The notes under the pieces: generated by a model
What the model saw: only the letters and a program-made list of their open reading frames with translations
Told to the model about the DNA's origin: nothing
Database searches by the model: none
Shown here: in pieces, positions 3,648 through 28,388 of the stretch
Numbering within the stretch: the first letter of the stretch is position 1
Layout of the letters: each line of letters starts with the position of its first letter
DNA from: a virus
DNA: 64,000 nucleotides
Virus record (IMG/VR): IMGVR_UViG_3300025577_000001
Span: 1 to 64,000 of that record
Reading direction: 5' to 3' (one strand)
Program-made: the position numbers and the translations under genes

Positions 3648-3673
3648 TTTGATTTACTAGGATTTTCCTAGGA

Positions 3674-6001: not shown

Positions 6002-6085
6002 ATTTTGTTTCCTCGCTCTTGTTGCGCCTTGTTGCGATCACGGTTAATATCTATTCATTGCGGCAGGTTCGGGCTGGATATGTAC

Positions 6086-6138: not shown

Positions 6139-6152
6139 TATTGCCCTGTGAC

Positions 6153-6419: not shown

Positions 6420-6566
6420 TGTATCTGTATGGTTTTGTGAGAATGTGTGTGATAACAAGTATCTTTTATTAGTCTATGTACGGAGCCGACCGCGTAGGGG
6501 ACTCACTCACAGACACTTTATATTCGTTCAAATTCACTCAGATTTAGCCAAATTCAGTGCATTTAC

Positions 6567-7112: not shown

Positions 7113-7153
7113 GTTTTAGTATCAATGTATTTTGAATGATGGCGTGATGCGCG

Positions 7154-10085: not shown

Positions 10086-13000
10086 TTACGCCGGTACTAA
10101 GACTTTTCCTGTCGCCTGAAGATTGACTAGGTAGGCTTGAGTCTCGTGGCTCAAACTTCTAAACGCCGCAGTCCACAATTCGGGTGATTGAGCCCGCATT
10201 ATTGCCCTAAGTTCGGTAAATTCCTCGTCGGTGGTGACCATTTCTATCAGGTCTGCGATGTCTTTAACGTCGCCTGGGTCTAATTTCATGGTGTGCTCCG
10301 GCGCGCCCTGATAAACGGGTTCGATTTGGGGTGTGATTCGGTCTGATTCGAAGTCAACAGATGCGTCTATATCTCTATTATAAGGATCTGTTGTCTTTTT
10401 ATCTGTTGTCTTTTCTGGCTGTAAGTCGCTCTGCGACTCAGCTTCAGCGTTTAGGTCATTTTTCGCCTTTTCAATCAGTGCTTCGTCAGCATCCTGACGG
10501 ATAATCGCAAACTTTTCGTAGTCGATAATGGGTGTTTTGACCCCATCTTTTTCGATGATCAGCTTATCGACGAGGCCATATTTATGTACCTGGCGACCGT
10601 CGATAGTGACGCGCCCTTGTGATTTGACATCGAGGTGCATCGTCTTTAGTAATGACTTAATCAAAGTGATGGGCTTTGACACTTCGATGTCGTGAGTATC
10701 GGGCGCGTCGCCTTTACCAAAGATGACGATCTTCTTCCCGACCGTGATATTTAGTACAGACTTCACATCGTCGGCCTGAGCTTTCATCTTTTCTATGATG
10801 CTAACGACCTGGGGAGATACTTCGGTGATGACGGCATCAGGCTTTGATAGATGCGCCAGCAATGCGGGCACGCCTAGATCTTCCTGCATCGCCACCTTAT
10901 GAGACTGAGCAGTGCGCAAGATGTCATCAGCCCAGGTGCGACCGCGCTTAGCGCCCTGTTGAGCCTTGGCTGCATCGCGCTTCGCGGCCTGCTTAGCACC
11001 TAGTGATAGATATAGGCGGCTGAGTAGTTTTAGATATAGGCCGTTCTTTTCCTCTTTTATTAGCTCAGGTGTGACGGCATCGGCGTCTATGCCGTATCGT
11101 TCACAGGCTTTGGCCTTGGTGATCTGCTGTCCTTCAGTGCGGGTGCGTTGGTGCTTTGCTTCGAGTGTCGGTAGATCGACGTTATCAATGGGGACAACGC
11201 TGGTTTCTTTATTGTTGATATCAGCGCTTTGGTCACGGCAGGCTTTTAGCTCAGCCTTGAATTCTTTTTTCTCGATCGGGTCCATCGCCGCCCATCCGGG
11301 AATGAATGCGATGTCTACGGTGTAGTTAGCCGCGCGCAGCAGGTTAAAGAAACCTTCAGCATAAGCGCGGGCCTCGCCATTGCGCTTCGCCTCCATCCGC
11401 ATCGCATAGCCTTGCCATAGACGGCCCACATTGCCGCCAACGAGTAAAGTGTCATCGGGTAGGTAGAATACGTCAGCATTGACCAAAGATCTTATATAGG
11501 CTTCCCATCGGTTGTTCTTGCCAGCGGCTAATAGAGCGTGGTCGGTTGCGCCATTGCCGTAAGGTGCGGGCACAATCTCTTTGCAGAATACGAAGCGTTT
11601 GATATTGGTAGGGCGATAGCGCGCCGTGGACTGCATACAATCGTCAATGCTGCCCGCGCCATTCTCAATCTGAAAAAAGCAATCAAAACCGCCTTGCTCA
11701 AAACTAATACCAGTAGAGCAAGCGTTAGTGTAGAGCACGTAATCATATTTGCCGAATATTTCAGCTTGACGATCGCGTCTTACGTCGGAATCAGGATGAT
11801 TGAGATAAGAAAGGATGCGGACAGATTCGACGCGGTCTTTAGTCTCCACGCCGCCGTCAGCGTCAACAGCGATCGAAATTTCGCCAGCCTTGACTTCTAT
11901 ATATGTATTCGGATTGGATGGATCGTTGCAGGTCTCAGAGTCTAATACCAAGCCTTTTAGATGTGGGTAGCGCTGCTGTGCCCATCGTGAGATTGTCTGA
12001 GTGCTATAGAGCGAGGTGTCTTGTTGGCCGCTTAGCTTGGCGATAAAGCGCTCACCATTCTGCATCGCCTCGTCCATGCGGAAGAATACTTCAGCCGCTT
12101 CAGCGCAGCGATAGACGCGGCCCATGTCGCGCTTATGAGTATTGACGACGACCAAGACCTGAGCCATCGGAATGCCCATTGTGCGGGCGTAAGTTTCAAT
12201 ATGTAGATCGCTTAGGCCCGCACTCATCAAGAGCACTTGCTTTGAGCGATGCCCGGCCTTAGATATATTTTCCAGGCACTCAGTACGGACGTGCTTGATA
12301 GCGGTCTGCGCGGCGACCATGTGATCGGCGACCTGATCGGCTTCGTCGAAGATAGTGCGACAATGAGCCGGAACGTTACCGGTAAAGTGAGCCTTACTCT
12401 TCATGTGGCCACTGTCAGCCGTTAGGACGGAGCCTTCAAAGCTGCCATACATTTCCAGCTCTTGAGTCACGGGCAAGCCGTACATTTCGCCTTGTGATTC
12501 GCCTAATGCATTACGATGCGTGACGGCCAAAGTATAGGGCGAATCTTCTTGAGCGTGAGCCCAATCAAGATATCCCTTGATTAGCTGAGTTTTACCCGTG
12601 CCGCAATCGCTAACAAGGGCGATCAACTTATAGTCGCTGAAGGCGGAAAACAATTCGTCAGACGAATGAGGCAGATAACCATAGTCGCGTTCAAAGCCAG
12701 GCGTTGCCGTCGCGCCCGACTTGCGAGTACCGGGCAGCTCGATAGATGGAATCGTTAGCGCCGGGCAACGCAATGCAAATTCATCCCATGCCAGCAATTC
12801 ATATTCGACTGGCCCGATCTCGTCGATGTCGGTGCCATTACCCAATGCATCTTTCTTGGCCATCTGGCCGTACCAGATGACGCGAAAGCTGATACCGGCT
12901 GCATCGCACTTTTTGGCAAGTGCCTTAACGCCATTTAGAACATTACGGTTCATGACCGCGCCGCCGTCAATAGCTAGGCGTAATTCTCTTACGCCGAATA

Positions 13001-13889
13001 ATTTGCACTGCGACTTGATTTGCTTCCATGACGTTGATGCCCAGTGCGAACCGGCGACGCCTAGTACAAAGCGACCCAGGTCAATGCCGTGGATATCAGC
13101 GCGCTGTAGTGCCACCCAAGGCTTAAGAAAGCCTTCGGTAATAGTCGCGTGCGACGCGTCCGAACCTTCGACTGCGTGAACAGTAATGGGATTTTCGTCA
13201 TGGCGACGAAGCTTAGCATTACCGTCTTTACTTAGCCAAAGATATTTCGCACCGCTCCAACCGGTCGCAACCTGTGCGCCAAGATGGACAGATGCGATGC
13301 CGCCGCCGGGAGCTTTTCTATACTGACGGCCAACAATCGCCATGCCGGACGGCCCGGCATATCCGTTATCGTCCCACTTACCAGGCAACGCCCGGCGATC
13401 AGGATTGTCGCCTTTTTCAATACTGAACAAAAGACCTTCAGTTGTCGCCTGGCGGATTGCCTCAGCGCTGACGCCGCGCGCCTGCGTCTTCGCGCGCCAA
13501 GCATCTTCAAGGCCGTTAGCCCAGGCCCAGGCCCGCAGGTTCTCGTCAACTTTCGGTTCTTCTGATTTCTTTACGCCAGGCAATTCAAAAGACTTAGCCT
13601 TGGCTGTTTGAGCAGGCGCGGGCAGCTTAGACGATAAAGAGCCAGCCGCGTAAGTCGTCTGTGCCCTCTTACTCTTATCCCACTTAGCCGCCGGTATCCA
13701 TGTGCCGGAGCCTGCGCGATCGGTGCCCTTGAATCGGTAACCATTAGAGCTTTCGCCATGATGGCCATCGCGACGTACCCAGCAGCTAATAAAACCGCTT
13801 TCCCATTCGCGGCACTTCTTACCTGAATTCTTCTTAGTGCGATCGGCCCGGCATACTGGGCAATCTGATAGAGACTTAAACTGAGCCAT
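10086..13889 (-). CDS. CyRepA1-like plasmid replication protein (primase-helicase)
   Basis: This 1267 aa replication initiator has an N-terminal zinc-ribbon-like segment (CPVCRADRTKKN, further Cys near 26 and 36). A DUF3854/Toprim-like domain follows, with ITEGFLKPW (about residue 253), LRLAIDGGAV and GTDIDEIG. A helicase core has Walker A VSDCGTGKTQL (about 433), Walker B TIFDEADQ (about 515), and a late motif with an arginine finger (SIDDCMQSTARYRPTN). This order matches the large Rep proteins of cyanobacterial plasmids. The C-terminal region (about 1160-1190, KTTDKKTTDPYNRDID) is encoded by a copy of the seven-copy repeat element, so that stretch is probably not ancestral. The start follows a GGAGG site and directly abuts a short upstream reading frame. 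Confidence 0.8.
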   Translation of the reverse strand: MAQFKSLSDCPVCRADRTKKNSGKKCREWESGFISCWVRRDGHHGESSNGYRFKGTDRAGSGTWIPAAKWDKSKRAQTTYAAGSLSSKLPAPAQTAKAKSFELPGVKKSEEPKVDENLRAWAWANGLEDAWRAKTQARGVSAEAIRQATTEGLLFSIEKGDNPDRRALPGKWDDNGYAGPSGMAIVGRQYRKAPGGGIASVHLGAQVATGWSGAKYLWLSKDGNAKLRRHDENPITVHAVEGSDASHATITEGFLKPWVALQRADIHGIDLGRFVLGVAGSHWASTSWKQIKSQCKLFGVRELRLAIDGGAVMNRNVLNGVKALAKKCDAAGISFRVIWYGQMAKKDALGNGTDIDEIGPVEYELLAWDEFALRCPALTIPSIELPGTRKSGATATPGFERDYGYLPHSSDELFSAFSDYKLIALVSDCGTGKTQLIKGYLDWAHAQEDSPYTLAVTHRNALGESQGEMYGLPVTQELEMYGSFEGSVLTADSGHMKSKAHFTGNVPAHCRTIFDEADQVADHMVAAQTAIKHVRTECLENISKAGHRSKQVLLMSAGLSDLHIETYARTMGIPMAQVLVVVNTHKRDMGRVYRCAEAAEVFFRMDEAMQNGERFIAKLSGQQDTSLYSTQTISRWAQQRYPHLKGLVLDSETCNDPSNPNTYIEVKAGEISIAVDADGGVETKDRVESVRILSYLNHPDSDVRRDRQAEIFGKYDYVLYTNACSTGISFEQGGFDCFFQIENGAGSIDDCMQSTARYRPTNIKRFVFCKEIVPAPYGNGATDHALLAAGKNNRWEAYIRSLVNADVFYLPDDTLLVGGNVGRLWQGYAMRMEAKRNGEARAYAEGFFNLLRAANYTVDIAFIPGWAAMDPIEKKEFKAELKACRDQSADINNKETSVVPIDNVDLPTLEAKHQRTRTEGQQITKAKACERYGIDADAVTPELIKEEKNGLYLKLLSRLYLSLGAKQAAKRDAAKAQQGAKRGRTWADDILRTAQSHKVAMQEDLGVPALLAHLSKPDAVITEVSPQVVSIIEKMKAQADDVKSVLNITVGKKIVIFGKGDAPDTHDIEVSKPITLIKSLLKTMHLDVKSQGRVTIDGRQVHKYGLVDKLIIEKDGVKTPIIDYEKFAIIRQDADEALIEKAKNDLNAEAESQSDLQPEKTTDKKTTDPYNRDIDASVDFESDRITPQIEPVYQGAPEHTMKLDPGDVKDIADLIEMVTTDEEFTELRAIMRAQSPELWTAAFRSLSHETQAYLVNLQATGKVLVPA
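10351..10424 (-). repeat. Seven-copy iteron element, copy 1 (inside rep)
   Basis: This copy contains the core AGATATAGACG-like degenerate right arm, the TATAAT box and two AAAGACAACAGATC-type iterons on the minus strand. The distal iteron found in other copies is absent or decayed. It lies inside the rep reading frame and adds residues there while keeping the frame open. Confidence 0.75.
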
Positions 13890-13979
13890 TTATACGCCCT
13901 CCTGTAGTGTCTGTGAGGACGCTGAAAAAACAAATTGCCCTTTCCCGCTCCGGTCGTTTATACTTGTCATGTCAGCCAT
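13890..13979 (-). CDS. Leader peptide upstream of rep
   Basis: This 29 aa frame begins at MADMTSINDRSGKGQF. Its TAA stop directly abuts the rep ATG, and the rep ribosome site (GGAGG) lies inside its last codons. The arrangement is like the tap leader of IncFII-type plasmids, where translation of a short peptide opens rep translation. A longer frame of 109 codons is open upstream but would run through the putative promoter. Assignment as a regulatory leader is inference from the arrangement. Confidence 0.5.
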   Translation of the reverse strand: MADMTSINDRSGKGQFVFSASSQTLQEGV

Positions 13980-14086
13980 TGGGTTTACTTCTTTTACTTC
14001 TTTGCTGTCACCCGTCCATGCTTTCGTCGGCTGTGGACTCATATACAACACCCGAAACCCAGGAAATCCCATTTCTGGGTTTTTTG
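13935..14086 (+). ncRNA. Candidate counter-transcript (antisense) RNA controlling rep
   Basis: On the plus strand a -35-like TTGCCC (13935-13940), an 18-nt spacer and a -10 TATACT (13959-13964) would start an RNA near 13971. The RNA would end at an intrinsic terminator (stem AAACCCAG-GAAAT with its complement at 14055-14082, loop CCC, then six T at 14080-14085). The product, about 115 nt, is fully antisense to the rep leader mRNA, including the leader-peptide start. This is the classic geometry of plasmid copy-number RNAs (CopA/RNAI type). No gene reads this way here. Confidence 0.6.
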
Positions 14087-14093
14087 TTGGCGA

Positions 14094-14183
14094 TGTAAAC
14101 TTATCCACAGAGCAAACCTGAACGCTGACTACATAGTACTCTATCACGATTGCAATTGCACGAAATGCAGCAATATATGTAAA
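14094..14183 (-). promoter_or_regulatory. Tandem TTTACAT motifs upstream of rep
   Basis: Two minus-strand TTTACA boxes (14178-14183 and 14094-14099) carry the TTATTTACAT and AAGTTTACAT context found at many promoters here. The -10 boxes are weak (TGCAAT for the distal one), so the exact start is uncertain. Confidence 0.4.
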
Positions 14184-14235
14184 TAAGTTCGCTATTCGCC
14201 AGTGTGATTTGAATCGCAATCCATTCTAAAACATA

Positions 14236-14265
14236 TTGACATAGGGTCATCAAGGGCGCTACATT
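14236..14265 (+). promoter_or_regulatory. Sigma70-type promoter
   Basis: TTGACA (14236-14241), an 18-nt spacer and TACATT (14260-14265) lie just upstream of the gene starting at 14292. Confidence 0.6.
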
Positions 14266-14291
14266 CTAGACAGTTCTTGAGGATCAGCGAA

Positions 14292-15005
14292 ATGGTAACA
14301 TCAGCAACGGCGGCGAAAAAGAAGCAAAGGACACGCAAGCCGCGCGCGTCCAGACGAAAAGTGAAGCAACAAAAAATGCAGAAATCTTTCACGCCTGAGA
14401 TCGGCAGCCGTCGCGCTGCGAGTATGGGTGTCAATTCTGACGGCAGCATTCCGCCGTTCGATCAGCTACCGGGCGAAGTAAAACGCACGGCCCTTGAATA
14501 TCTCATCAAGTCGACGGTGCCAAAGATGCGGCCTGATTCGACTATTTCAACCGAGCAGCTTCAGATCGTCGCAGGCTGGGCTAACGAATATCAAGAGGAA
14601 TTAGAAATATTGCCGGAGTCGCCGGTAAGAATTCGATATCTAGGCATCCGTCAGCTATTCACAGAGCTACACAAATTAAAGCTAGTGCAAGAGCATCGGC
14701 AGCGTCAAAGCAATCTACGGCAGGTCGTAGCTGAGTGCACGGGTTATGAAGCATTGCCGACGGCGGGCAGTCCTGAATGGCCGATCGCGCCATCGCTCTT
14801 GTACATTGGGTCAACGCTCGCCACGTTAGCGGGTGAGCAATCGACAGTCCGCCCGGCGATTCCTTTACTCGGTGCGATGGCCGTACTGAAGTATCAAGGA
14901 ATCTTAGTCGCGGGCATTCAGCCTGGGCTTAGCGATGAGCAAATCTACGCCAGTGCATACGGCCCAAGGCATCTGAATTATTTTAAGAAGCCGCGACGCC
15001 GTTAA
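14292..15005 (+). CDS. Basic hypothetical protein divergent from rep
   Basis: This 237 aa protein starts at ATG 14292, preceded by GAGG at 9 nt. An in-frame earlier ATG at 14277 overlaps the presumed transcription start region. The first 35 residues are extremely basic (KKKQRTRKPRASRRKVKQQK), which suggests nucleic acid binding or a nuclear-like tail. The rest is helical with YLIKSTVPKMR and LQIVAGWANEYQEELEIL. It has its own sigma70 promoter and ends at a long hairpin. It may be a replication or copy-control accessory, but no family was recognised. Confidence 0.6.
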   Translation: MVTSATAAKKKQRTRKPRASRRKVKQQKMQKSFTPEIGSRRAASMGVNSDGSIPPFDQLPGEVKRTALEYLIKSTVPKMRPDSTISTEQLQIVAGWANEYQEELEILPESPVRIRYLGIRQLFTELHKLKLVQEHRQRQSNLRQVVAECTGYEALPTAGSPEWPIAPSLLYIGSTLATLAGEQSTVRPAIPLLGAMAVLKYQGILVAGIQPGLSDEQIYASAYGPRHLNYFKKPRRR

Positions 15006-15017
15006 GGCTTATCGTGT

Positions 15018-15070
15018 CCAAGCACAAGAAAGCCCGATCAGTCATCCTGATCGGGCTTTCTTGTGCTTGG
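15018..15070. terminator. Long 24-bp hairpin between converging genes
   Basis: Arms of 24 nt (starting CCAAGCACAAGAAAGCCCG) flank a 5-nt loop. It separates the plus-strand gene from the minus-strand helicase unit. The T tract is poor. Confidence 0.6.
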
Positions 15071-15126
15071 ATTCAGCGCCAGCGCAATAGACAAAACAGC
15101 GGACTACCTTGGCCCGCTCTGTATGT

Positions 15127-15315
15127 GCCCACGCCTGGAAGCAATAGGCGCATAGACAGTAAAAAACCCTTTCCCCCACGCCTGGAAGCAAATGGGAAAA
15201 GGGTTTAGGCCGAAAACCTATCAACGAAACCAAACGTGAATAAGAATATATCGGCTATTACTTCCTAAAACCGATTCCCCCGCGCCTAGTAAACAACGGG
15301 AAATGGGTTCAAGGC
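15127..15315 (-). repeat. Tandem hairpins with a conserved loop
   Basis: Three related segments carry the words CACGCCTGGAAGCAA (twice, near 15130 and 15177) and CGCGCCTAGTAAACAA (near 15281). Two of them sit in loops of hairpins whose stems pair AACCC-type with GGGTT-type arms (about 15163-15208 and 15273-15312). On the minus strand the stem at 15163-15208 is followed by six T, so it can terminate the helicase transcript. The remaining sequence to 15426 shows no gene. Confidence 0.5.
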
Positions 15316-15426
15316 TTTTCAGACGTTCACAAGCACAACCCAACGAAAACTAAAAACCTTAGGTCGGCTATTACAGTATAGACCAAAGACGCGCCGTCAA
15401 GCTGTCAACTTAAGAACGATTTTGAT

Positions 15427-17166
15427 CTACCAGCTTGGCGGCGCAACCACTTTGATATTCTTCACCTTGGCGGCGACTGACGCAGCAATAGCAGGCGACT
15501 GTATGGCCTGATTCGCAGCGATATCGGCGCGCAATAGTGCGACAGTCTCACTAAAGAATTCCTGCTCTATTGCGTACCATAGCTTTCGATTCCTGTCTGA
15601 CGGCGATAGCATTTCATTCTTGTCTAGTTTCATCCTGAGAAATGCGTAATAGTCTCGGGCACGATCGAGTGAATCGGGCGCGTTAAAGATAGCGCCAAGT
15701 GTCCATAACGAACGCCCGCGCGGAATGCGATTGGCCCAGTGCGTCCAGTCGGGATGGTCTTTCAGTTGCATCCAGGCGCGGCCCGGTAGCGAGTTGTACT
15801 TGAGCACTGCCGATGCTTGCAGGTACCTAAAGTATTCTTGAGCGTGCGCTTCGTTGTCAGGATTTAGTGTGGATGGTCGAACCGTCTTGATTAATGGCGC
15901 GTCGAAGCTACGCGCTAATATTTCGGGCGGATTCGCTTCGCGTTCTTGCATGACGCCGCAATGCGGACAAAAGATCTGCGCCGCGTGTATCATCTCATGG
16001 CAATTCTGGCAGGGTACTGCGAACGCGTTGATCACGTCTTCGTCTTTTTCTGCTGGAAGTGCAAAGACTTCTTTCTTATCCCATACTTTATCGCCGTATC
16101 CGTGGCGCTTGCAGTTGCCCACGAAGTCTAGAATCAGACCGTACTCTTTACCCGGCGCAGCGCGACCGGCGCGGCCAATCTGCTGATCGTGTGTCGCAGC
16201 AGATTTTGTCGGGCGCAGCAATAGCGCTAGTATCGTGTCTCTTACATCGAACCCAACGCTCAGCACGTCACGGGCCGCGAGAATGTCAATGTCGCCTTTA
16301 TCAAACGCCTTGATAAGTGCGGCACGTGTTTTCTTGGTCGGATACTCATCTTTGGCTCTGCCTCGTGGCGTCTTATAGCTGATAGATTCAGCGACGAAGC
16401 CCGCACGGTTGAAACCCGCCGCGACGTTCTCGGCATGTTCGACATCAATGCAAAAGGCAATTGCCTTGCCGCCGCCGCGCTCAGCATAGACCTTGATAAA
16501 TTCCTTGATAGCTTCAGGCGTATCATACAAAGTTTTCTCTGTGTCGCCGTCGCCCTTGATACCTTCGGCTGCTTCGTAGAATTCTAATGGGGCCAGACGC
16601 CCTAACCTTACCAATTCATCACGCGGCGGTGCTTGCACCAACGCGGTGAATTTATCGGCGAAGGTGTCTGTGTCTTTCATTCTTATTGGCGTTGCCGTCA
16701 GCCCGATATTAAAGCGAGGCTTGGCTGTTTCCAATATGCTCTGCCATCCAGTCTGAAAATACAGCGTGTGGGCCTCGTCGCCTATTGTCAGGTTAGGCAA
16801 ATATTTCACATCAATTTCACCGCGTGCAATGCGATTGGCCGCCGTCTCTTGAGCCACTACCTGAATAGGTCGCGCATACTGCGCTTTGTATGAGTTATGA
16901 ATGCATCCGATCATCTGCGGCGGAATGCCCGCAAGTTTCATCGCAGATGAAAACTCAGCGTAAGTCTGGGCGACCAACACATCTAGATGAACGCCAAACC
17001 ATACGCGTTGACGACGACTGACGGCATCAGCCGCGATCTGCGCCGCCATCCTTGTCTTACCCGCGCCGCATGACGCTACGCCCAAAACGCTGCTATGCCC
17101 AGCCTTAAAGTGTCCGTATATCTCGCCAACGAAATCCTTTTGAAATTCAAATAAATTTAGTCCCAT
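15427..17166 (-). CDS. SF2 DEAD/DEAH-box helicase
   Basis: This 579 aa protein has SF2 motifs in order: GVASCGAGKTRMA (Walker A, about residue 30), GDEAHTL (motif II, about 130), GLTATPIR (motif III), and QQIGRAGRAAPG (motif VI, about 330). A C-terminal zinc finger follows (CQNCHEMIHAAQIFCPHCG, about 388-406). The composition is that of UvsW/RadD-like phage helicases, which remodel replication and recombination intermediates. The last 150 residues look helical and unknown. A small membrane protein gene ends 1-3 nt upstream, so they form one operon behind a TTTACA-type promoter at about 17391-17419. Confidence 0.85.
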   Translation of the reverse strand: MGLNLFEFQKDFVGEIYGHFKAGHSSVLGVASCGAGKTRMAAQIAADAVSRRQRVWFGVHLDVLVAQTYAEFSSAMKLAGIPPQMIGCIHNSYKAQYARPIQVVAQETAANRIARGEIDVKYLPNLTIGDEAHTLYFQTGWQSILETAKPRFNIGLTATPIRMKDTDTFADKFTALVQAPPRDELVRLGRLAPLEFYEAAEGIKGDGDTEKTLYDTPEAIKEFIKVYAERGGGKAIAFCIDVEHAENVAAGFNRAGFVAESISYKTPRGRAKDEYPTKKTRAALIKAFDKGDIDILAARDVLSVGFDVRDTILALLLRPTKSAATHDQQIGRAGRAAPGKEYGLILDFVGNCKRHGYGDKVWDKKEVFALPAEKDEDVINAFAVPCQNCHEMIHAAQIFCPHCGVMQEREANPPEILARSFDAPLIKTVRPSTLNPDNEAHAQEYFRYLQASAVLKYNSLPGRAWMQLKDHPDWTHWANRIPRGRSLWTLGAIFNAPDSLDRARDYYAFLRMKLDKNEMLSPSDRNRKLWYAIEQEFFSETVALLRADIAANQAIQSPAIAASVAAKVKNIKVVAPPSW

Positions 17167-17167
17167 A

Positions 17168-17359
17168 TCAACACCGCTTTCCTTTTAAGCAATCGTTTGT
17201 ATATTCCTGATCTTCTCTTTCTATGTCTGCCTCTAGCGCTTCCTCGTCTGGATAAAGCGGCACGTTGCCCGACTTGGGCCGCTCAAACGATGCAGCTACC
17301 CATAAACCCATAGCCATCCATAGGCCCATGATTCCAGTCAATATCAATGCGTCTTTCAA
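17168..17359 (-). CDS. Small single-pass membrane protein
   Basis: This 63 aa protein has one transmembrane segment (ALILTGIMGLWMAMGLWVAA, about residues 4-23) and an acidic cytoplasmic tail with EEALEADIEREDQEY. It is the first gene of the helicase operon. The function is unknown. Confidence 0.5.
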   Translation of the reverse strand: MKDALILTGIMGLWMAMGLWVAASFERPKSGNVPLYPDEEALEADIEREDQEYTNDCLKGKRC

Positions 17360-17390
17360 TCCCTTTCGCCCTTATAATCACCGCCCTACC

Positions 17391-17430
17391 ATCCTAACAA
17401 GTATTCGCCTTGATGTAAATAAGTTTTAGA
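17391..17430 (-). promoter_or_regulatory. TTTACA-family promoter of helicase operon
   Basis: On the minus strand an AAAACTTATTTACAT context is seen: TTTACA at 17414-17419, a 17-nt spacer and -10 TAGGAT at 17391-17396. Confidence 0.6.
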
Positions 17431-17476
17431 TTTAGAGCAAAGCATATCTAAGCTTAGTCGTTAAATTTGGCACAAA

Positions 17477-17498
17477 GGTTGTGACAATTAGCACAACC
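17477..17498. promoter_or_regulatory. Inverted repeat operator candidate
   Basis: GGTTGTG-N8-CACAACC lies about 50 nt upstream of the ParB-like gene start and may be an autoregulatory site. Confidence 0.4.
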
Positions 17499-17545
17499 CG
17501 CTTAGAATTGGCATAGACGAGGATTCAACATAGGAAAATACTGAT

Positions 17546-18664: not shown

Positions 18665-18683
18665 TCGCTAACCTCAGACCCTT

Positions 18684-18724
18684 AAAAAAGCACTGCGGAT
18701 CGCATTAATCCGCAGTGCTTTTTT
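18684..18724 (+). terminator. Intrinsic terminator
   Basis: A stem (AAAAAAGCACTGCGGAT with its complement) ends in six T, just after the ParB-like gene. Confidence 0.85.
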
Positions 18725-18728
18725 GTTT

Positions 18729-18846
18729 AAAAGACAACAGATCGTCATTTTTAAGTCCAAACGCTCAAACGCCCACGCGATAAGCCTTACAGATCGAAAG
18801 ACAACAGATCCTTATAATAGAGATATATAAGATTCTGTTGTCTTTT
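18729..18846 (+). repeat. Seven-copy iteron element, copy 2
   Basis: Plus-strand orientation: a distal iteron AAAAGACAACAGATC (18729), a GATAAGCCT word, then a proximal iteron joined to CTTATAATAGAGATATATAAG and closed by the inverted arm CTGTTGTCTTT. It sits upstream of the Dda-like helicase gene and is followed by a TTTACA promoter. Confidence 0.9.
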
Positions 18847-18906
18847 TAGACGTCGAATAATCGCCACTCAAATAGCGTTTATAGCGCGGCGGCAATAGCA
18901 GGATAA

Positions 18907-18945
18907 ATAAAACCTATTTACATGAGATGGCGATTGTGTTAGATT
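18907..18945 (+). promoter_or_regulatory. TTTACA-family promoter
   Basis: AAAACCTATTTACAT context: TTTACA 18917-18922, a 17-nt spacer, and TAGATT 18940-18945. It heads the helicase gene at 18982. Confidence 0.6.
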
Positions 18946-18981
18946 AAGTGAGCAATCTTAAATCGAACGGATTACGCAAAC

Positions 18982-20367
18982 ATGATCGCCTCACTGACTA
19001 AGCCCAAAGTTTCAGCCCCCGACGAGTTAGTCCTTACCTCTCACCAGACTGACGCCTACACGGGCATAAAGAATTTTCTAGCATCCTCAGAGCGATTCTT
19101 CCTGTTGACCGGATACGCGGGCACAGGGAAATCAACGACGCTGACGCAAGCGGCTAAAGAATATCTAGCCGCAAATCCTTACGCGAGGATCGCGCTATGC
19201 GCTATGAGCAATAAAGCGGTCAAAGTTCTCAAGAATATGGCGGAAGACATCGAAATGCGCGACCGCGCCGCCGCGCTTACTATCTGCTCGCTATTAGGAC
19301 TTCGACCCAAAATCAATAACCAGACAGGACAACAAGAATTTTTGCCAGACAAGAAGACGCCGCCGACGCTGCATGAATATGACGTTGTAGTTTTTGACGA
19401 ATGTTCACAGATTGGTAGAACGATGTGGGAGCTAATCACTGACGCTGTCATGGCTGAAGGGCTTTTGACCGGGACGAAGATTATATTTACGGGTGACCCG
19501 GCGCAGTTGCCGCCGATTGGCGAGGAAGGTTCCCCCACCTTCCACCTGGTGCCCGAGAGCAACCGGGCGCATCTAAGCAAGGTCGTTCGATATGACGGTG
19601 CTGTCGCTCATCTGGCTGAGCGTGTTCGCACTATGCCAAATTGGCACGAGCGGCCTGTCATTGGCACTGAGTTCACCGAAGACAAAACAAAAGGCGTCTG
19701 GGCCGTAGACGCTGACACCTTCGGCCTAATCGCTGAAAAGCTATTTGGCGGCGCTGAATATGCCAGCGATCCTGACTATGGTCGAATCATCTGCTATCGC
19801 AATGCGACGGTCAATAATTGGAACAGTCGCATCTATCACCGGCTTTATGGCGCGGACGCACCGCGATTCACAGTCGGCATGTCAGTCATGGCCAATAGTC
19901 CAGTATTCAAAGGCGGCACGGGGCGCGAAATCATTATGAACAATAGCGACGAAGGCCGTGTCACCGAGATACATCAGGGCCTTGATGGTAGCTGGCCGAT
20001 CTGGGTTGTGCGCATTCAGTTGCCGGATAAGTGGAATACGATTGTCTGCCATGTTTTGAACGAAAGCGCTCAGCCCGCATTTGATGAGCAATTGCAGATA
20101 ATGGCAGCGTCTAAAAACTGGCGTCAGTTTTGGGATTTGAAAAACCGCTTTGCCGATCTGCGCTATTGCTACGCGCTCACTTCTCACAAAGCTCAGGGCT
20201 CGACATTCCGAAATGTATTCGTCGCGCTGCCAGACATTCTGAACGCGCGCAATAAGAAAGAAGTCGATCAGCTAATCTATGTAGCCCTCACCCGCGCAAG
20301 CCATAGGGTGTTTGTGCATGGTGCATCCGCGCCCGCACTTGGCGCAATGCCTCCACCATCTGCTTAG
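18982..20367 (+). CDS. Dda/RecD-like SF1B DNA helicase
   Basis: This 461 aa helicase has SF1 motifs in order: GYAGTGKSTTL (Walker A, about residues 42-52), VFDECSQIG (motif II, about 136), FTGDPAQLPPIG (motif III, about 170-181), YALTSHKAQGSTF (motif V, near 400) and YVALTRASHRVFVHG (motif VI, near 435). The UvrD_C_2-like end is intact. Such helicases act in origin unwinding and recombination in T4-like phages. It starts at ATG 18982, 37 nt after the -10 box of a TTTACA-type promoter. Confidence 0.9.
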   Translation: MIASLTKPKVSAPDELVLTSHQTDAYTGIKNFLASSERFFLLTGYAGTGKSTTLTQAAKEYLAANPYARIALCAMSNKAVKVLKNMAEDIEMRDRAAALTICSLLGLRPKINNQTGQQEFLPDKKTPPTLHEYDVVVFDECSQIGRTMWELITDAVMAEGLLTGTKIIFTGDPAQLPPIGEEGSPTFHLVPESNRAHLSKVVRYDGAVAHLAERVRTMPNWHERPVIGTEFTEDKTKGVWAVDADTFGLIAEKLFGGAEYASDPDYGRIICYRNATVNNWNSRIYHRLYGADAPRFTVGMSVMANSPVFKGGTGREIIMNNSDEGRVTEIHQGLDGSWPIWVVRIQLPDKWNTIVCHVLNESAQPAFDEQLQIMAASKNWRQFWDLKNRFADLRYCYALTSHKAQGSTFRNVFVALPDILNARNKKEVDQLIYVALTRASHRVFVHGASAPALGAMPPPSA

Positions 20368-20396
20368 ACTTGGCTATTGCTATTGCACAATCGCAA

Positions 20397-20430
20397 ACCT
20401 GTTTGCTATGATGTAAACAGGTTTTATAAT
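20397..20430 (+). promoter_or_regulatory. Promoter overlapping a symmetric operator
   Basis: AAACCTGTTT and AAACAGGTTTT form an inverted repeat around the spacer. TTTGCT (20402-20407), 17 nt and TATAAT (20425-20430) form the promoter. The symmetry suggests a repressor site. Confidence 0.6.
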
Positions 20431-20453
20431 TCTACTCAAAGGAACACCACGTC

Positions 20454-21032
20454 ATGCAAGCACAAAGACTGAGCAAGAGACAACCGGCTACGCGCGGCGG
20501 GCTTCGTCGTCGCAAGCGCGATGACAGGGGCAGCGGACGCAAGGGTCAAGCTATTGCCGCCGTCGCCATTGCCGTAGGCTTTTTAGGATGCGTGACGGCT
20601 GTCACATTAGAAATGACCAGCCCTGCTGCGGTCTATCGTAGAGAGCAGGCGCAGCAAGCCAAGATGGATCGGACTGCGGCTGAGAAGCGCGCTGAAGATA
20701 GTGTGATTGCGAATACTCGGTATGAGAAAGGTTGCACAATGACTGTGACGCAGACGCTCAAGCCTGATGGCGGCAGCATCTTTGGCGTCGTCTCGCTATC
20801 TGAGTACATCGTATTTACAGACGCGGCGACTGGTAAGGCGCTATTGCGCGGGACGCCGGTCTGTGATGACAACGGCACCACCGCAGAGATCGGCGAAGGC
20901 GGGCGCATTAACATGGATACGATCATGCAAGCGTCTGATATGAGCCTAGTGAGAGCCCGATATCAAGCCTCCATCGGCTGGGCGCAGGACAGCCGCTATA
21001 GCACTAGCAACGCGCTGCCAGTATCCGAGTAA
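20454..21032 (+). CDS. Membrane-anchored hypothetical protein
   Basis: This 192 aa protein has a basic N-terminus with several arginines, one transmembrane segment at about residues 30-52 (AIAAVAIAVGFLGCVTAVTL), a helical charged stretch (AEKRAEDSVIANTRYEK), and a soluble beta-rich outer or periplasmic domain. Two cysteines (KGCTMTV and TPVCDDN) could form a disulfide. It is the first gene of a membrane module with the multi-pass protein and P-loop ATPase downstream, and may be part of a trans-envelope complex. Confidence 0.55.
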   Translation: MQAQRLSKRQPATRGGLRRRKRDDRGSGRKGQAIAAVAIAVGFLGCVTAVTLEMTSPAAVYRREQAQQAKMDRTAAEKRAEDSVIANTRYEKGCTMTVTQTLKPDGGSIFGVVSLSEYIVFTDAATGKALLRGTPVCDDNGTTAEIGEGGRINMDTIMQASDMSLVRARYQASIGWAQDSRYSTSNALPVSE

Positions 21033-21094
21033 GTTTCCAATAATTCGACCAATCACAATAAACCTAAAACGCCCATCAGGGGCGACAGAATCTA

Positions 21095-22138
21095 ATGTCT
21101 AAAAACTTGTTTGATTTGTGGGATATTCCACAGCCCGTGGACGGCGGTGGCGATACCGAAGAGTCAGCGCCGCGCCGCCCAAAAGCGTCGCCTGGGCGCA
21201 GCCCTAAACCTAAGTCGTCGAAAGGCGGCAAAGGAATTAAGGGCATCTGGGCGAATGTTCAAGGCCGAGTAAAGAATGAGACGGCTAGCATTAGCGACGG
21301 CATCAGCATAAAGGTGGTGATGGGTCTTTTTGGCCTGAGCATCCTTTTGCAAGTTGCGGGGCAAATGACCGGCGTCAACTGGCTGCTATCAGTCGGCGAC
21401 GTCGTGGATTGGTGCGGCACTATTGCGCTATTGCTTTTCTTGTTCCAATGGGGCAAGCGCAATCTAGGCAGTATGCCCGCCTTCCTTAGCAGTGTTCTAG
21501 GCTTCATCGTTCTAGGGATGCTTGTCATTCTGTTTTGGCAATCGGCCCACATCTACGCCGACTTGGGCCGCAAGCTGGCAAGTTCTAATGCGGTCAGCGT
21601 TGGCAATCTGGGCGCGTCTTATCTTGGCGATAATCCATTAGGTCGGATGGCCGCTGCATTCTTGATGGTCGTCGCCAGTATGCTGCAATCGCTAAATATG
21701 AATTTTTGGGGCCTCTTGTTCGTGCTCCTATTCTGTGTGATTCAGTTCGCTGAAGTCGCACCGATGATCGTCCGGTCGTCGCCGCTATTCATGGAGAGGC
21801 TGATAAAGCAGTTCAATCGATTCAAAAAGCTCTCGCCCACTGGCCAAGAATCCGAAGCGGTATCAAGGCTTATCGATCAGCACAACGATTATTTTGAATC
21901 ATTCCTAACTGGCCTTGGCTACGCGCAGATTGCGGCATACGCGATTGATGCACTTGTCTGCCTTTACGCCGTGCCGTTGATTAAGCCTGGCACGACGATG
22001 ATGACGTTTGTCCCTAGCGATATCGCTTGGCTTGGCATTGTTCGCATCGCCATCACCTTATTCCTGTTCGCTCAAACGACTTGGATTTATATCCAAGTGC
22101 GCAAGGCTCACGCTATCTTCTCGGGCCGCATCGTATAG
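21095..22138 (+). CDS. Multi-pass membrane protein (target homologue of CRISPR spacer 5)
   Basis: This 347 aa protein has a charged, basic N-terminal tail of about 75 residues (SPGRSPKPKSSKGGKG), then about six transmembrane helices, for example SILLQVAGQMTGVNWLL, IVLGMLVILFW, LLFVLLFCVIQFA and ALVCLYAVPLI. It has no signature of a known transporter family. A gene for a membrane-anchored P-loop ATPase follows within 80 nt, so the pair may form a membrane complex. CRISPR spacer 5 matches 21718-21751 with five third-position mismatches only, so a homologue of this gene is the apparent target. Confidence 0.65.
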   Translation: MSKNLFDLWDIPQPVDGGGDTEESAPRRPKASPGRSPKPKSSKGGKGIKGIWANVQGRVKNETASISDGISIKVVMGLFGLSILLQVAGQMTGVNWLLSVGDVVDWCGTIALLLFLFQWGKRNLGSMPAFLSSVLGFIVLGMLVILFWQSAHIYADLGRKLASSNAVSVGNLGASYLGDNPLGRMAAAFLMVVASMLQSLNMNFWGLLFVLLFCVIQFAEVAPMIVRSSPLFMERLIKQFNRFKKLSPTGQESEAVSRLIDQHNDYFESFLTGLGYAQIAAYAIDALVCLYAVPLIKPGTTMMTFVPSDIAWLGIVRIAITLFLFAQTTWIYIQVRKAHAIFSGRIV

Positions 22139-22213
22139 CGGCGCTATTGCCCTGGCGATATTCTGCCAGGGCCTTCCATTATTCAAAACCTAAAAACGAA
22201 AAAGGACACCATC

Positions 22214-24097
22214 ATGAACTCATACATCAAGGGCCTACCGCTCAGCCGTCAGTCAGATGCCATCACACAAATCGAAAGCGAACTGAAAAGCGGCACTCTA
22301 GACATCGCTAGCTATTACAAAAAGATGATCAAGCGACGTGAGATGGATTCATACCATCGAAATCTAAGCGGTGCTATCACGGGCGGTTTCGTCGCAGGCG
22401 CTACGCTCTTAGTCGTCGTTACTAATCCCATCGTCGCCGCAGCTGCATTCTTGAGCGTCGCGGGCGGCGGCGCTCTACTAGGAAAAAACAAACTTGACGA
22501 TGGCTTACACGCGATCGAAGTTGATGACTTTGGGTATCTGTTGACTGACGACGAACTAGATGAGCTGTCACGATTTATCGCCGCATCAGCCGAGCCGACG
22601 ACACCAGCCGCGCGTCGCTCAATGGAAATCGCTCAAGCGATTCTTGCAGCTGAAGTCGAAGATATCGAAGTCGAAGACGCGCCAGCCGTCATCGATATGC
22701 ATCAATCTTCAGACGGTGGCTTCGCATCTTCTGACTTTCCCGACGCATCGCCCGCGCCATTGCCTGCCGATCAGGTCTATAGCTACATTGACAATGAATC
22801 AGAAGACTTCGACACTGACGCCGACATTGACATGGAAAGCGCCCAAGGCCCATCCGAACCAACCTTTAATTTAGGCGGGCGCTCTTATCCTCTATTGGTG
22901 AATGGCGCGCCTAATCCTTCATTACTTTCGATGCCATTGCGCGACCGGGCGATCGTGATTTTAGACGCGCTAGACGCGGCAGGCTTCACCATCAAGAAAT
23001 ATCTGAACCGTCCCACCTTTTGCGCGGGCACTAAGCAACGCTCAGGCAAGACGGCCCTGCTCGTGATGATGGCAATCTTTGAGAAAGCAATCCACGGGCG
23101 CAAAGTTTTTTACGCCACTGCCGACAATGACGTTTATCCTTTCGCCTTCGACGGCGTCGCCGCTGGCAATCCTGACAATGCTCGCGCAGGCTTCGATGCA
23201 TTTTGCAATCGCGTCAATAGCGCCGACGTTGGCAGCATGATCGGTGAGACTTGGGTACTTGATGAGTTTGCGCGGACTGCGTCAGGCTACGACGATCAAA
23301 AACGTTTAGACCTGTGGACGATGCCCCTATCTGGCATCGCTAAGACCGGCGGAAAGTTTAGAGGTATCCTTCACGGCACTACCGCGTCAATGTGCGCAGT
23401 GCCCAGCGGATGGAAAGAAACTTTCGCACAGGAAATTGTGATGGCGCGCGGCGGTCGCGAGCTAAACGAGTCAGGTGTCTATCAGCCCACCGGAATTTAT
23501 GAAATGTACGGAGATGGTGACAAAGACGAACTCAAGCCTATGAATGAGTGCTTTTCTATACCCGCATGGCTGCTCATCTCAGTAAATGAGTCTTACTATA
23601 AGACGCCTTGCCCGGTGCGTTCTCTGCTTGAATTCTTCCCTGAATTAGACACAAGGAAGGGTGCTATAGCAGGCGAATTGCTAGCGAATACTAAGCCAGT
23701 TTCCTCGCCAGTTGAACCATCGAAGCCAGCCAGAAAAGCTGAGGAAAACACAGCGACTACAGAGGAATATTCGCCATCTATCGAAGGATGCGATCCGCCC
23801 GTTAGTCCGCTCAGTATTCCGCTGGGTAATAGCGATAAAACGATCGCCTGGTTCTTGGATAGCATCGCTAGATACATGCATAAGCATCCTGGAAAAACTA
23901 GAACCGGGTCGAGTCTTCTGAATATTTGCTTTAGCGATGCCACGAAGCCAGTGGCAAAGGAACATATGCAAATGCTGATCGAAACTTTGGCACAACAGCA
24001 TTCGGATTCTTTTGAGGCTGTCGATTGCTGTGGGGCGATTGGACTTAAGTGTCACACGCCTAAAAAATCTGTTAGAGATTATTATGGAACCCGTTAG
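22214..24097 (+). CDS. Membrane-anchored P-loop ATPase (VirD4/FtsK-like features)
   Basis: This 627 aa protein has a hydrophobic hairpin at about residues 58-98 (GAITGGFVAGATLLVVV, IVAAAAFLSVAGGGALLG), an acidic linker rich in Asp and Glu, then an ATPase core: Walker A GTKQRSGKTALL (about 269-280) and Walker B WVLDEFAR (about 345-352). An LDEF-type motif occurs in T4CP/TraD coupling proteins and in some virion-independent DNA pumps. The rest lacks a recognisable domain. A RBS (AAGGACACC) precedes ATG 22214. It could move DNA or form a membrane platform for segregation; this is inferred from motifs. Confidence 0.65.
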   Translation: MNSYIKGLPLSRQSDAITQIESELKSGTLDIASYYKKMIKRREMDSYHRNLSGAITGGFVAGATLLVVVTNPIVAAAAFLSVAGGGALLGKNKLDDGLHAIEVDDFGYLLTDDELDELSRFIAASAEPTTPAARRSMEIAQAILAAEVEDIEVEDAPAVIDMHQSSDGGFASSDFPDASPAPLPADQVYSYIDNESEDFDTDADIDMESAQGPSEPTFNLGGRSYPLLVNGAPNPSLLSMPLRDRAIVILDALDAAGFTIKKYLNRPTFCAGTKQRSGKTALLVMMAIFEKAIHGRKVFYATADNDVYPFAFDGVAAGNPDNARAGFDAFCNRVNSADVGSMIGETWVLDEFARTASGYDDQKRLDLWTMPLSGIAKTGGKFRGILHGTTASMCAVPSGWKETFAQEIVMARGGRELNESGVYQPTGIYEMYGDGDKDELKPMNECFSIPAWLLISVNESYYKTPCPVRSLLEFFPELDTRKGAIAGELLANTKPVSSPVEPSKPARKAEENTATTEEYSPSIEGCDPPVSPLSIPLGNSDKTIAWFLDSIARYMHKHPGKTRTGSSLLNICFSDATKPVAKEHMQMLIETLAQQHSDSFEAVDCCGAIGLKCHTPKKSVRDYYGTR

Positions 24098-24124
24098 ATT
24101 TTTCTAGAAACCCCCTTATTTTTC

Positions 24125-24241
24125 CGTTAGACGTTAGATCTAACGTTAGACAAGCATCTAACGTTAGATCTAACGAAAATCTAACAGAAGTCTAACGAAG
24201 GTCTAACAGAAGATCTAACGCTCTAACGATTCCTCTAACGC
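24125..24241. repeat. TCTAACG iteron cluster
   Basis: About a dozen copies of TCTAACG or its complement CGTTAGA lie in about 117 nt, including two copies of the palindrome ACGTTAGATCTAACG (near 24129 and 24161). Several copies are direct repeats spaced about 11-13 nt. It lies between the ATPase gene and a small gene, close to the segregation locus, and could be an operator, an origin or a centromere-like site. Confidence 0.7.
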
Positions 24242-24277
24242 AGGAAATAGCCTTAACTGTCACACTACTAAAACGTC

Positions 24278-24595
24278 ATGCCAAAGTTCAAAAAGTCGTC
24301 AAGAAAAACAGAAACAGTCTCCATTTCTCGTACCCAAGTTTTCTGGATAATCAGCTTTGCCATCGAACAACCAATTCTCCAAAACCTGCCAGACTCTCTA
24401 AGGCCCTGGGTAGATGGCGAGATACTTTACGGCTTCTACGCTGACCCATTACCTGGCGACGAAGTCGAAATTCACGGCCATAGATTCCAGGTCACCAAGC
24501 GTAAATTTCAGCCCACGAAACGCAATAGCCGCGACCCTAAAATAGTCGGCACGGTAGAGGTCGAAATGACCTTTAGGCCGCTACCAATAACCTAG
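24278..24595 (+). CDS. Hypothetical protein between iteron cluster and parR-parM
   Basis: This 105 aa protein has a basic N-terminus (MPKFKKSSRKTE) and a mixed alpha-beta body with VFWIISFAIEQPI and DPLPGDEVEIHGHRF. The last part contains IVGTVEVEMTFRPLP. It is close to the iteron cluster and could be its binding protein, but no HTH or RHH is evident. No family was recognised. Confidence 0.5.
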   Translation: MPKFKKSSRKTETVSISRTQVFWIISFAIEQPILQNLPDSLRPWVDGEILYGFYADPLPGDEVEIHGHRFQVTKRKFQPTKRNSRDPKIVGTVEVEMTFRPLPIT

Positions 24596-24685
24596 GCTTC
24601 CACGCCGCGCTATTGCACTTAATTAGTCAGCCGTGAGGCAATAGCGCGGCAATATCTCACCTATCAAAAGCACCTGATTTTAGTC

Positions 24686-24875
24686 GCAATGAGACAGGTC
24701 TAGTCTCATTATGAGACAGTATAAAAAGGCACTCAAAAGGCTAAAAATACACTGAGCGCTCTAATGTGCTTTATTGCGCTTTATATGGCACTTTGAGGGC
24801 ACATTGAAAACAAATTGACATCAAAGTGCCCTCAAGTGCCAAATTTGGCACTTTGATGTGTTACTTTGAAATTGT
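24686..24875 (+). repeat. parC-like centromere candidate
   Basis: An inverted repeat AATGAGAC-N7-GTCTCATT (about 24690-24712) is followed by repeated GGCACTTTGA words and complements (TCAAAGTGCC), about five to six copies with variants (GGGCACATTGA, CAAAGTGCCCTCAAGTGCC), ending about 30 nt before the ParR-like gene. In R1-type and pSK41-type segregation systems such iterons upstream of the operon bind ParR and form the centromere. Confidence 0.6.
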
Positions 24876-24899
24876 CGAATTTTGAAGGCAACAGCGACG

Positions 24900-25226
24900 A
24901 TGACAAAGCAAGCAGAAAAGAAAATCAGAATTAGATACAGCTTCGTAGAAAAACATCTGAGCGAACTGTGGAAGATGTTCCCAGCGCTAGAAAACTCAGG
25001 AGATGTCGCGGGCGTGTTAACGCTATGCGACTTGGGACTAAAAAAGCTAAAGGAAGGAAAAGGTAATGAATGCAGCACAGAGAATTACAGCGAGCCGGTT
25101 AGCCGACTACAACAGCCAAGGCCACAGGCAAGTACAAGTGAGGACTGGACAAGTGCAGTGGATGAAACCGGGCCTATCGCAGAAGCCGACCCGCTTGCAA
25201 ACTTCGACGCAGACGACGACTTTTAG
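24900..25226 (+). CDS. ParR-like segregation adaptor
   Basis: This 108 aa protein starts at ATG 24900 (GAAGG at about 11 nt). It has a basic N-terminal half that resembles ribbon-helix-helix adaptors (KIRIRYSFVEKHLSELWKM), and an acidic, low-complexity C-terminal tail (DPLANFDADDDF), similar to ParR tails that contact the ParM filament end. It is directly upstream of the actin-like gene and just after the iterons. The family assignment rests on context and size, not on clear identity. Confidence 0.55.
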   Translation: MTKQAEKKIRIRYSFVEKHLSELWKMFPALENSGDVAGVLTLCDLGLKKLKEGKGNECSTENYSEPVSRLQQPRPQASTSEDWTSAVDETGPIAEADPLANFDADDDF

Positions 25227-25275
25227 ATCAGACGACGACAGCAACCCAAATACATATATAGAGGACAACAAAAAA

Positions 25276-26370
25276 ATGCTCGCACTAGTACCCGACTCCA
25301 ACAACGTTCAGCAATTCACCAATATCGATGACGCTATGAACACGACGACGACAGACACAGCGCCTATTCGAGTCGTGATCGACTTTGGCAACGGCAGCAT
25401 TAAATACGCTGTCGCCATCAACGGCGACAAGATTACAAAAGGCGCAGTGCCTAGCCTGCTAATCGAAACGCAGCACCCTGCGGGGTCTGTCGTCAACGGC
25501 ACTAGGTTCGGCTATGGCGCTATCGCAGCAAAGCTAGATTTAGAAGCCGCTTACTCGCCAGGGCGTGAAGCAAGCAGTGCGGGCAAGCGGCAGAATCTAG
25601 ATAAGGTTCTAGCCGCCGTTGCGATTGAAAGCGGATTAGTAGATAGCGATAGCGCTGAACCCGTTAACGTCGAAGTGTGGATCGCGTCGCCGCTGGCGTC
25701 GGGCACCATGCCTGAGCACGAAGCGTTGATCGGCTCTCATTTGATTAGCACGCCGGGCAAGAAAGGCGAAAGCGCCAAGTCTAAGCTCATCAAGGTTGTC
25801 GGCGTTAGGGCTTACCAAGAATGCTCGCCACTTCTCGCAAAGTTCGACGCAGTTGTAGATCTGGGCAACGGCACCAGCTTTTACGGATGGAACGACAACA
25901 ATGGCGCGGCGCGCGTGAAGGCTATCGAGTCGGGCGTCGGTGCAATGCTTGAGCGGGCTATCGATTCGCCAACGATTGCGCGCCGCTATGCCGATAGCGC
26001 TGACGCTGGCAAAGGCGTGCTGAGTGCTGAAGGCTTGGCCGCGTCACTCGCAAGCGGGCGCGCATTCAGCAAAGACGACGAGTCCGGAAAACTCTACGTC
26101 AGCTATAAGGGCGTTCAGTTTGCCGACGTTCTAGGGCCATTGGTGCTTGAGTACTTTGCTAAGACCGTCGTGCCAGCGATGCGCGAAGCTGCGGCTAAGT
26201 CGGTCTCATTCGACAGCACGCCGAAGCTAGCGGTAGTGGGCGGCGGCGCGGCGTTATTGCGTCAGATGCTCTGCGACGATCAACTATCACAGCACGGCAT
26301 CGAGACTCACAAAATCGTATGGCCATCACGCCCTGCTACACAGCTTGTCGAACATATCTGCGCCCAATAG
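25276..26370 (+). CDS. parM: ParM/StbA-like actin ATPase for plasmid segregation
   Basis: This 364 aa actin-fold ATPase starts at ATG 25276, with GAGG 11 nt upstream; an open upstream extension overlaps parR in another frame. The phosphate-1 motif is VIDFGNGSIKYAV (about residues 34-46), phosphate-2 is VVDLGNGTSFYGW (about 194-206), and the adenosine motif is AVVGGGAALL near the C-terminus. These are the actin-superfamily signatures of ParM/StbA/Alp filaments. Together with the iterons and small adaptor gene it forms a type II partition locus, implying stable extrachromosomal maintenance. Confidence 0.85.
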   Translation: MLALVPDSNNVQQFTNIDDAMNTTTTDTAPIRVVIDFGNGSIKYAVAINGDKITKGAVPSLLIETQHPAGSVVNGTRFGYGAIAAKLDLEAAYSPGREASSAGKRQNLDKVLAAVAIESGLVDSDSAEPVNVEVWIASPLASGTMPEHEALIGSHLISTPGKKGESAKSKLIKVVGVRAYQECSPLLAKFDAVVDLGNGTSFYGWNDNNGAARVKAIESGVGAMLERAIDSPTIARRYADSADAGKGVLSAEGLAASLASGRAFSKDDESGKLYVSYKGVQFADVLGPLVLEYFAKTVVPAMREAAAKSVSFDSTPKLAVVGGGAALLRQMLCDDQLSQHGIETHKIVWPSRPATQLVEHICAQ

Positions 26371-27972: not shown

Positions 27973-28073
27973 CGCTAACGCCATAAACACACGCAGAGAA
28001 TACTCGACGCGGCCTGGCTGCTTGTCGAAAGAGCTTACGAAAACGACAACATATAAGAGGAAAAAGGAACCAC

Positions 28074-28337: not shown

Positions 28338-28388
28338 CATTATCAAACCGATCGATACTAAACACTGCCCAATACACAAGACTTACCC

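Follow-up and report, generated by a model that had tools for sequence, protein, structure and literature searches.

A plasmid-type replication initiator in a contractile-tailed cyanophage genome: a possible plasmid prophage of cyanobacteria

How does a phage genome that combines contractile-tail virion genes with a plasmid-type replication initiator and an actin-like gene persist in its host? We addressed this question in a 64,000-bp window (the whole stretch of DNA analysed), which is part of a 69,128-bp IMG/VR record. A first-pass annotation of the window had proposed a prophage that is segregated as a plasmid in a cyanobacterium. The host and the integrase-free circle held up in our analyses; the plasmid and segregation step is a reading of genes whose presence is shared with integrating relatives. 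On balance we favour persistence as a plasmid prophage, with a probability of roughly 0.55.

Genome closure and virion genes

The IMG/VR record carries an exact repeat of 127 bp at both ends, so the genome closes as a 69,001-bp circle. Assemblers often use a k-mer length of 127, the same as the length of this repeat. The closure is that of a circular assembly—such a repeat is also expected from circularly permuted virion DNA after assembly and does not distinguish that DNA from a plasmid, which counts against the plasmid reading. GC skew showed no clear origin, an Rfam search gave no match, and megablast of the first 25 kb of the window against 50,697 phage records was likewise empty.

Virion genes were assigned by PHROG and pairwise searches. 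The packaging and head genes, all on the minus strand, encode a terminase small subunit (TerS; 8431–8925; PHROG 309), a terminase large subunit (TerL; 7154–8434; PHROG 2, E = 3e-41), a portal protein (4475–6001; PHROG 145), a scaffold-like protein (3674–4393), which lies between the portal and capsid genes and matches the scaffold locus of Leptolyngbya phage Lbo402-yong5, and a major capsid protein (MCP; 2598–3647; PHROG 37569, E = 5e-89). The tail genes, on the same strand, encode a contractile sheath (61507–63036; PHROG 17610/23), a tape measure protein (57337–59220; matching the tape measure locus of Lbo402-yong5), a tail collar/fibre protein (40240–41367; PHROG 31611) and, from PHROG and Lbo402-yong5 comparison, a cluster of baseplate and tail-tip genes (42979–48750) that includes a tail protein (42979–43635), a baseplate wedge (43639–44838), a baseplate assembly protein (45721–46332) and a hub/peptidase (47218–48750). 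The tailed-phage virion and packaging gene set is complete, as expected of a phage-plasmid. The complete myovirus cluster that the first-pass annotation placed at 10086–26370 exists as a full gene set and lies mostly outside that interval, at 615–8925 and about 40–67 kb of the circle.

Among sequenced phages, the group of Anabaena phage A-1(L) and Lbo402-yong5 come closest (38–44% identity for the sheath and 32–36% for TerL). MCP is 43% identical to that of A-1(L) and 58% to that of a Nodosilinea prophage, TerL is 54% identical to that of the same prophage, and the sheath is 36–51% identical to cyanophage and prophage sheaths.

The replication initiator and other genes of the element

The gene at 10086–13889 (minus strand) encodes a protein of 1,267 aa with a zinc-finger-like N terminus, a DUF3854/Toprim-like domain and a DEAD-type helicase domain, consistent with the large Rep with Toprim-like and helicase motifs described earlier. 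Its catalytic positions, its plasmid matches and its similarity to the NCBIfam model CyRepA1 (NF042913; E = 2.5e-57) identify it as a replication initiator. The score of 195.1 bits is 5 bits short of the curated cut-off of 200 bits, and we therefore name the protein CyRepA1-type instead of filing it as a family member. When the protein was aligned with eight Reps from plasmids (19–24% identity), the Toprim-like residues E241 and D308, the Walker A motif GTGKT (residues 430–434), the DE pair (515–516) and the QxxxRxR helicase motif (753–759) all fell on invariant columns. Judged from its sequence, Rep is related to, but divergent from, the CyRepA1 family of cyanobacterial plasmids and has retained the catalytic residues. 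The CyRepA1 characterised so far is a Rep for plasmid maintenance (PMC9978351, PMC10079941), and autonomous replication of pSYSA requires CyRepA1, with theta-type replication proposed by the authors (PMC9978351).

Rep matched 86 plasmid records, whose ten commonest genera are all cyanobacteria; among the matches listed, 25 of 25 are cyanobacterial, and none of the 50,697 phage records was matched. Because the Rep matches and the closest virion genes (those of A-1(L)-like cyanophages and cyanobacterial prophages) all point to cyanobacteria, the cyanobacterial host put forward at the outset is well supported by these comparisons. We describe the element as a complete cyanobacterial virus of 69 kb. 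A 15-bp unit (GATCTGTTGTCTTTC or a close variant) forms tandem pairs at 10386–10414, 38985–39013 and 45493–45521, which are possible operator sites.

The joining of plasmid and virion genes might also reflect a chimeric assembly or a single, one-off recombinant, and it fits such an origin that no near-identical second copy of the element was found. However, G+C is uniform round the circle, and a 9-kb IMG/VR contig (L014), the TerL of which is 43% identical to that of the window, starts with a Rep of CyRepA1 type (160 bits, E = 1e-46) and has the gene order of the window (Rep–TerS–TerL–portal–scaffold–MCP). This matching Rep–terminase order makes a chimera unlikely, and we consider such an origin very improbable. 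The TerL gene of this contig (L014:2980–5346) has an intein-like insertion, and an overlapping frame resembles an HNH nuclease.

The element further encodes an SF2 DNA helicase (15427–17166, minus strand; PHROG 16, E = 5e-63), a Dda/RecD-like helicase (18982–20367, plus strand; PHROG 325, E = 1e-94) and two nucleotide-metabolism proteins, ThyX and dCTP deaminase. A three-gene cassette on the plus strand (20454–24097) comprises a small membrane protein (20454–21032), a membrane protein (21095–22138) and a membrane-anchored FtsK-like P-loop ATPase (22214–24097), with FtsK-like relatives in A-1(L), Lbo402-yong5 and an Oculatella prophage (element B, below). Two HTH genes at 35877–38720 (minus strand) are possible regulators—one weakly repressor-like (35877–36551; PHROG 2328, E = 2e-4), the other with a P63C domain (37935–38720; PF10546, E = 1e-11)—and no convincing lysogeny repressor was found among the window genes. 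The thymidylate synthase ThyX (33805–35604, minus strand) is split by an intein that carries an HNH endonuclease. A CRISPR array (51610–52290; ten repeats of 37 nt and nine spacers of 34–35 nt) adjoins a gene for a TnpB-like effector of 570 aa (52805–54517, minus strand), which resembles C2c8 (type V-U2; E = 2.5e-38 against NF038192, below the cut-off). The spacers gave no convincing targets, and spacer 4 (51862–51895) resembles a degenerate copy of the CRISPR repeat. A type V-U2 system was previously reported in cyanophage CL131 (PMC6293099). Single-protein scans of viral contigs with Rep, the actin-like protein and the Cas12-like protein revealed no close relatives.

The actin-like gene, its adaptor candidate and repeats

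A putative actin-like ATPase (ParM/AlpC-like) is encoded on the plus strand at 25276–26370. The protein contains phosphate-1 (VIDFGNGSIK), phosphate-2 (VVDLGNGT) and adenosine (AVVGGG) motifs in this order and with ParM-like spacing. Of 816 frames with a length of 250 aa or more, only this one and the pSK41 ParM control matched in a three-motif scan, and a looser scan of the relatives matched only this protein and the actin of one relative (G187), which is ALP_N by Pfam. Pfam gave no family match for the window protein; a match to PHROG 691 ('partition protein', E = 0.019) was not recovered in a one-genome search, hhalign against ParM/ALP gave a probability of 1.6%, a PDB sequence search returned no actin, and an AlphaFold model from the single sequence without an alignment (pLDDT 34) was too poor to judge the fold. 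No actin homologues were found in 386 cyanobacterial genomes, and the phosphate-1 DNA pattern was discarded as an actin finder after matching seven contigs, all by chance. The ParM-like actin gene of the first-pass annotation is thus borne out by the order and spacing of its motifs and not by family models (Pfam and one-genome PHROG), and we regard the actin-like identity as only partly supported, by these motifs. The start given earlier (25066) overlaps an upstream 108-aa ORF (24900–25226, plus strand), and a start at 25276 or 25336 is more likely.

This 108-aa ORF, with a basic N terminus and an acidic tail, is the best candidate for a DNA-binding adaptor (ParR/AlpA-like by position). The small adaptor claimed beforehand holds as far as the location upstream of the actin gene goes; Pfam gave no match and the structure model is unconfident (pLDDT 59). 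The iterons, also described beforehand, were confirmed: 13 TCTAAC/GTTAGA hexamers, mostly 11–12 bp apart, lie within 24126–24239, compared with a maximum of three per 140 bp in 200 simulated genomes. The array is a putative centromere (parC-like) or set of origin iterons. A further cluster of repeats (GGCACTTTGA in both direct and inverted orientation; 24783–24869) lies immediately 5′ of the adaptor ORF and is a candidate operator.

The locus is therefore ordered as repeats, adaptor candidate and actin gene. This differs from the motor-before-adaptor order of type II ParMRC systems, whose phosphate-1, phosphate-2 and adenosine motifs the window protein has, and is closer to alpAC of the Corynebacterium prophage CGP3 (PMC4446434). 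The alpAC-like order suits the main alternative to a plasmid prophage, a lytic (or pseudolysogenic) cyanophage in which Rep would be a lytic replication initiator and the actin-like protein and adaptor would move phage DNA, like AlpC and AlpA of CGP3. AlpAC promotes viral DNA replication (PMC4446434), and partition genes alone are no proof of plasmid replication (PMC8026635); the presence of two helicases, ThyX and dCTP deaminase also speaks for a lytic phage, as do the similar virion genes of A-1(L)-group isolates in the phage collection. By contrast, the element lacks the DNA polymerase found in its sequenced phage relatives, and the maintenance role of the characterised CyRepA1 points to plasmids. 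We consider a lytic lifestyle unlikely, although it is the strongest competitor of the plasmid prophage.

Relatives, integrases and the favoured lifestyle

A TerL scan of host genomes found no match, whereas a sheath profile matched Nodosilinea LEGE 07298 (contig of 23.6 kb; MCP 58%) and Oculatella LEGE 06141 (contig of 167 kb), and a sheath-based survey of 386 cyanobacterial genomes revealed five further relatives. Wherever enough flanking sequence was available, in six host-borne relatives, the contig also encodes a tyrosine integrase; three of the six are on contigs of 3.1–7.0 Mb, indicating that they are chromosomal. None of the five survey relatives has a Rep of CyRepA1 type within a distance of about 40 kb, nor was one detected in the Nodosilinea genome at the search sensitivity used.

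On the Oculatella contig, an intact tRNA-Ser(GCT) gene (125685–125775) precedes chromosomal genes, and the 3′ part of this tRNA gene recurs as a perfect copy of 62 bp at 57900–57961. Two tandem prophages lie at the tRNA-Ser gene, with a related integrase at the right end of each. Element A (57.9–125.7 kb, approximately 68 kb) has the window-type virion; its sheath match is interrupted by an in-frame stop. Element B, to the left of 57.9 kb, encodes a CyRepA1-type Rep, an integrase and its own virion cluster, and carries a cassette resembling window positions 20454–24097. The candidate reading of CyRepA1 and an A-1(L)-type virion on one Oculatella element was rejected, the 62-bp tRNA copy dividing the region into two prophages. 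Two integrase families occur in these tandem prophages at one tRNA-Ser gene (G002:C147:1–125775), and a second, XerC-like recombinase family is found near the packaging genes in several relatives (G002:C147:32670–33719 and 89726–90697; G060 region 27402–28367) and not in the window.

A CyRepA1-type Rep thus occurs in an integrated prophage (element B), and in G187 the ALP_N actin gene is located between the integrase and the virion genes. With both genes present in integrase-bearing relatives, which counts against the plasmid reading, neither is diagnostic of a plasmid lifestyle, and we rejected the notion that Rep or actin proves a plasmid. In a Rep tree, the Reps of the window, L014 and element B do not fall in one clade, which hints at repeated capture of phage Reps from plasmids; very long branches make the grouping unsure.

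In contrast to the six relatives, the window element has no integrase, as the first-pass annotation had stated. Searches for tyrosine and serine integrases (PF00589 and PF00239) were empty across the whole 69,128-bp record. Given that PF00589 barely detects one relative's integrase (element B family; E = 0.0024), eight integrases of three unrelated types from the relatives served as further queries against all six reading frames, and none matched. ORFs of at least 300 aa were scanned or matched to virion genes, except for the repeat-rich, tail-fibre-like 65543–67252, and none is recombinase-like. Integrated copies were found for relatives only. These results bear on chromosomal integration through an unrecognised recombinase or host Xer, with Rep acting after excision, as seems likely for element B. 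That prophage, with its Rep and integrase abutting the perfect tRNA-Ser copy, is a precedent for such integration, and the weak PF00589 score shows that family searches can miss integrases; the eight unmatched integrases and the ORF scan argue against it, and we judge it quite improbable.

DNA polymerases were also absent from the window, both by PHROGs and in comparisons with those of A-1(L), Lbo402, G187 and G342, each of which has a polymerase or PolB-like gene. Taken together, the plasmid-type Rep, the actin-like gene with iterons, the lack of an integrase and a polymerase and the closed circle favour a plasmid prophage over its rivals; the conserved Rep residues, the actin motifs and the gene order shared with L014 are further points for it. 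Several negative results count against it: a portal search of 72,556 PLSDB plasmids gave no convincing match, no host assembly with the element as a plasmid was found, the actin-like protein matched no family model and had a poor single-sequence structure model, and no lysogeny repressor was convincing.

As a plasmid prophage, the element would be a temperate phage of cyanobacteria whose myovirus virion is A-1(L)-like and in which a plasmid module replaces the polymerase and integrase functions usual in the lineage. The CyRepA1-type Rep would open the origin and prime circular replication by the host polymerase, and the actin-like filament protein would position or segregate the circles, with the 108-aa ORF and TCTAAC iterons as the probable coupling. 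The element would persist at low copy number as a circular plasmid prophage and package its own DNA on induction. Plasmid maintenance, segregation, adaptor function, use of the host polymerase and a temperate lifestyle are what we infer from these genes. More tentatively, at somewhat less than even odds, cyanophages may have repeatedly captured CyRepA1-type initiators from plasmids, which here, with an actin cassette and loss of integrase and polymerase, would have yielded a phage-plasmid driven by CyRepA1 and equipped with a full contractile-tail virion; the search of 50,697 phage records turned up no element of this type.

Should the plasmid reading be true, some cyanobacteria hold phages hidden as plasmids rather than as chromosomal prophages, surveys of cyanobacterial plasmids and prophages would overlook or misfile such phages, and replication modules pass between the plasmids and the phages of cyanobacteria. 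Whether or not that reading is true, the comparison has a use of its own: finding a plasmid Rep or an actin-type gene in a phage is not enough to establish a plasmid lifestyle, since relatives with either gene carry integrases.

Phage-plasmids are already known; the combination of this Rep with this virion is new. The element shares capsid, sheath, baseplate, terminase and FtsK-like genes with the A-1(L) group and Lbo402-yong5, but these phages carry DNA polymerase genes (A-1(L) also a primase), which the window lacks, and the window has a CyRepA1-type Rep, found in no phage record searched. With the CyRepA1 plasmids (pSYSA Slr7037; PMC9978351, PMC10079941, PMC10899382) it has in common the Toprim-like DUF3854 domain, the DEAD-type helicase domain and conserved residues, whereas its Rep is only 19–24% identical, scores under the NCBIfam cut-off and is linked to a full virion cluster. 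The Bacillus plasmid prophages B83 and IEBH, which have ParM and an RHH adaptor (IEBH being listed without a recombinase), are likewise tailed phages with an actin-type partition gene (PMC8026635), but differ in host phylum, Rep and virion, and the window's actin is defined by motifs and has its adaptor candidate upstream. CGP3 has the same repeats–adaptor–actin order, but is an integrated prophage in which the actin and adaptor (AlpC and AlpA, with alpS) serve viral DNA replication (PMC4446434). Nostoc N6 pNPM8 (PMC5987646) and a Microcystis phage-like plasmid (PMC12510456) are cyanobacterial plasmids suspected to derive from phages; pNPM8, which is linear, encodes CyRepA1 and ParA, and no complete virion set is reported for either plasmid. 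The glacial phage-plasmids (PMC4490671) are, like this element, circular phage genomes with partition genes, one of them with CRISPR, but their partition genes are of the ParA/ParB type and the CRISPR-bearing phage encodes an integrase, its CRISPR system being of type I-E.
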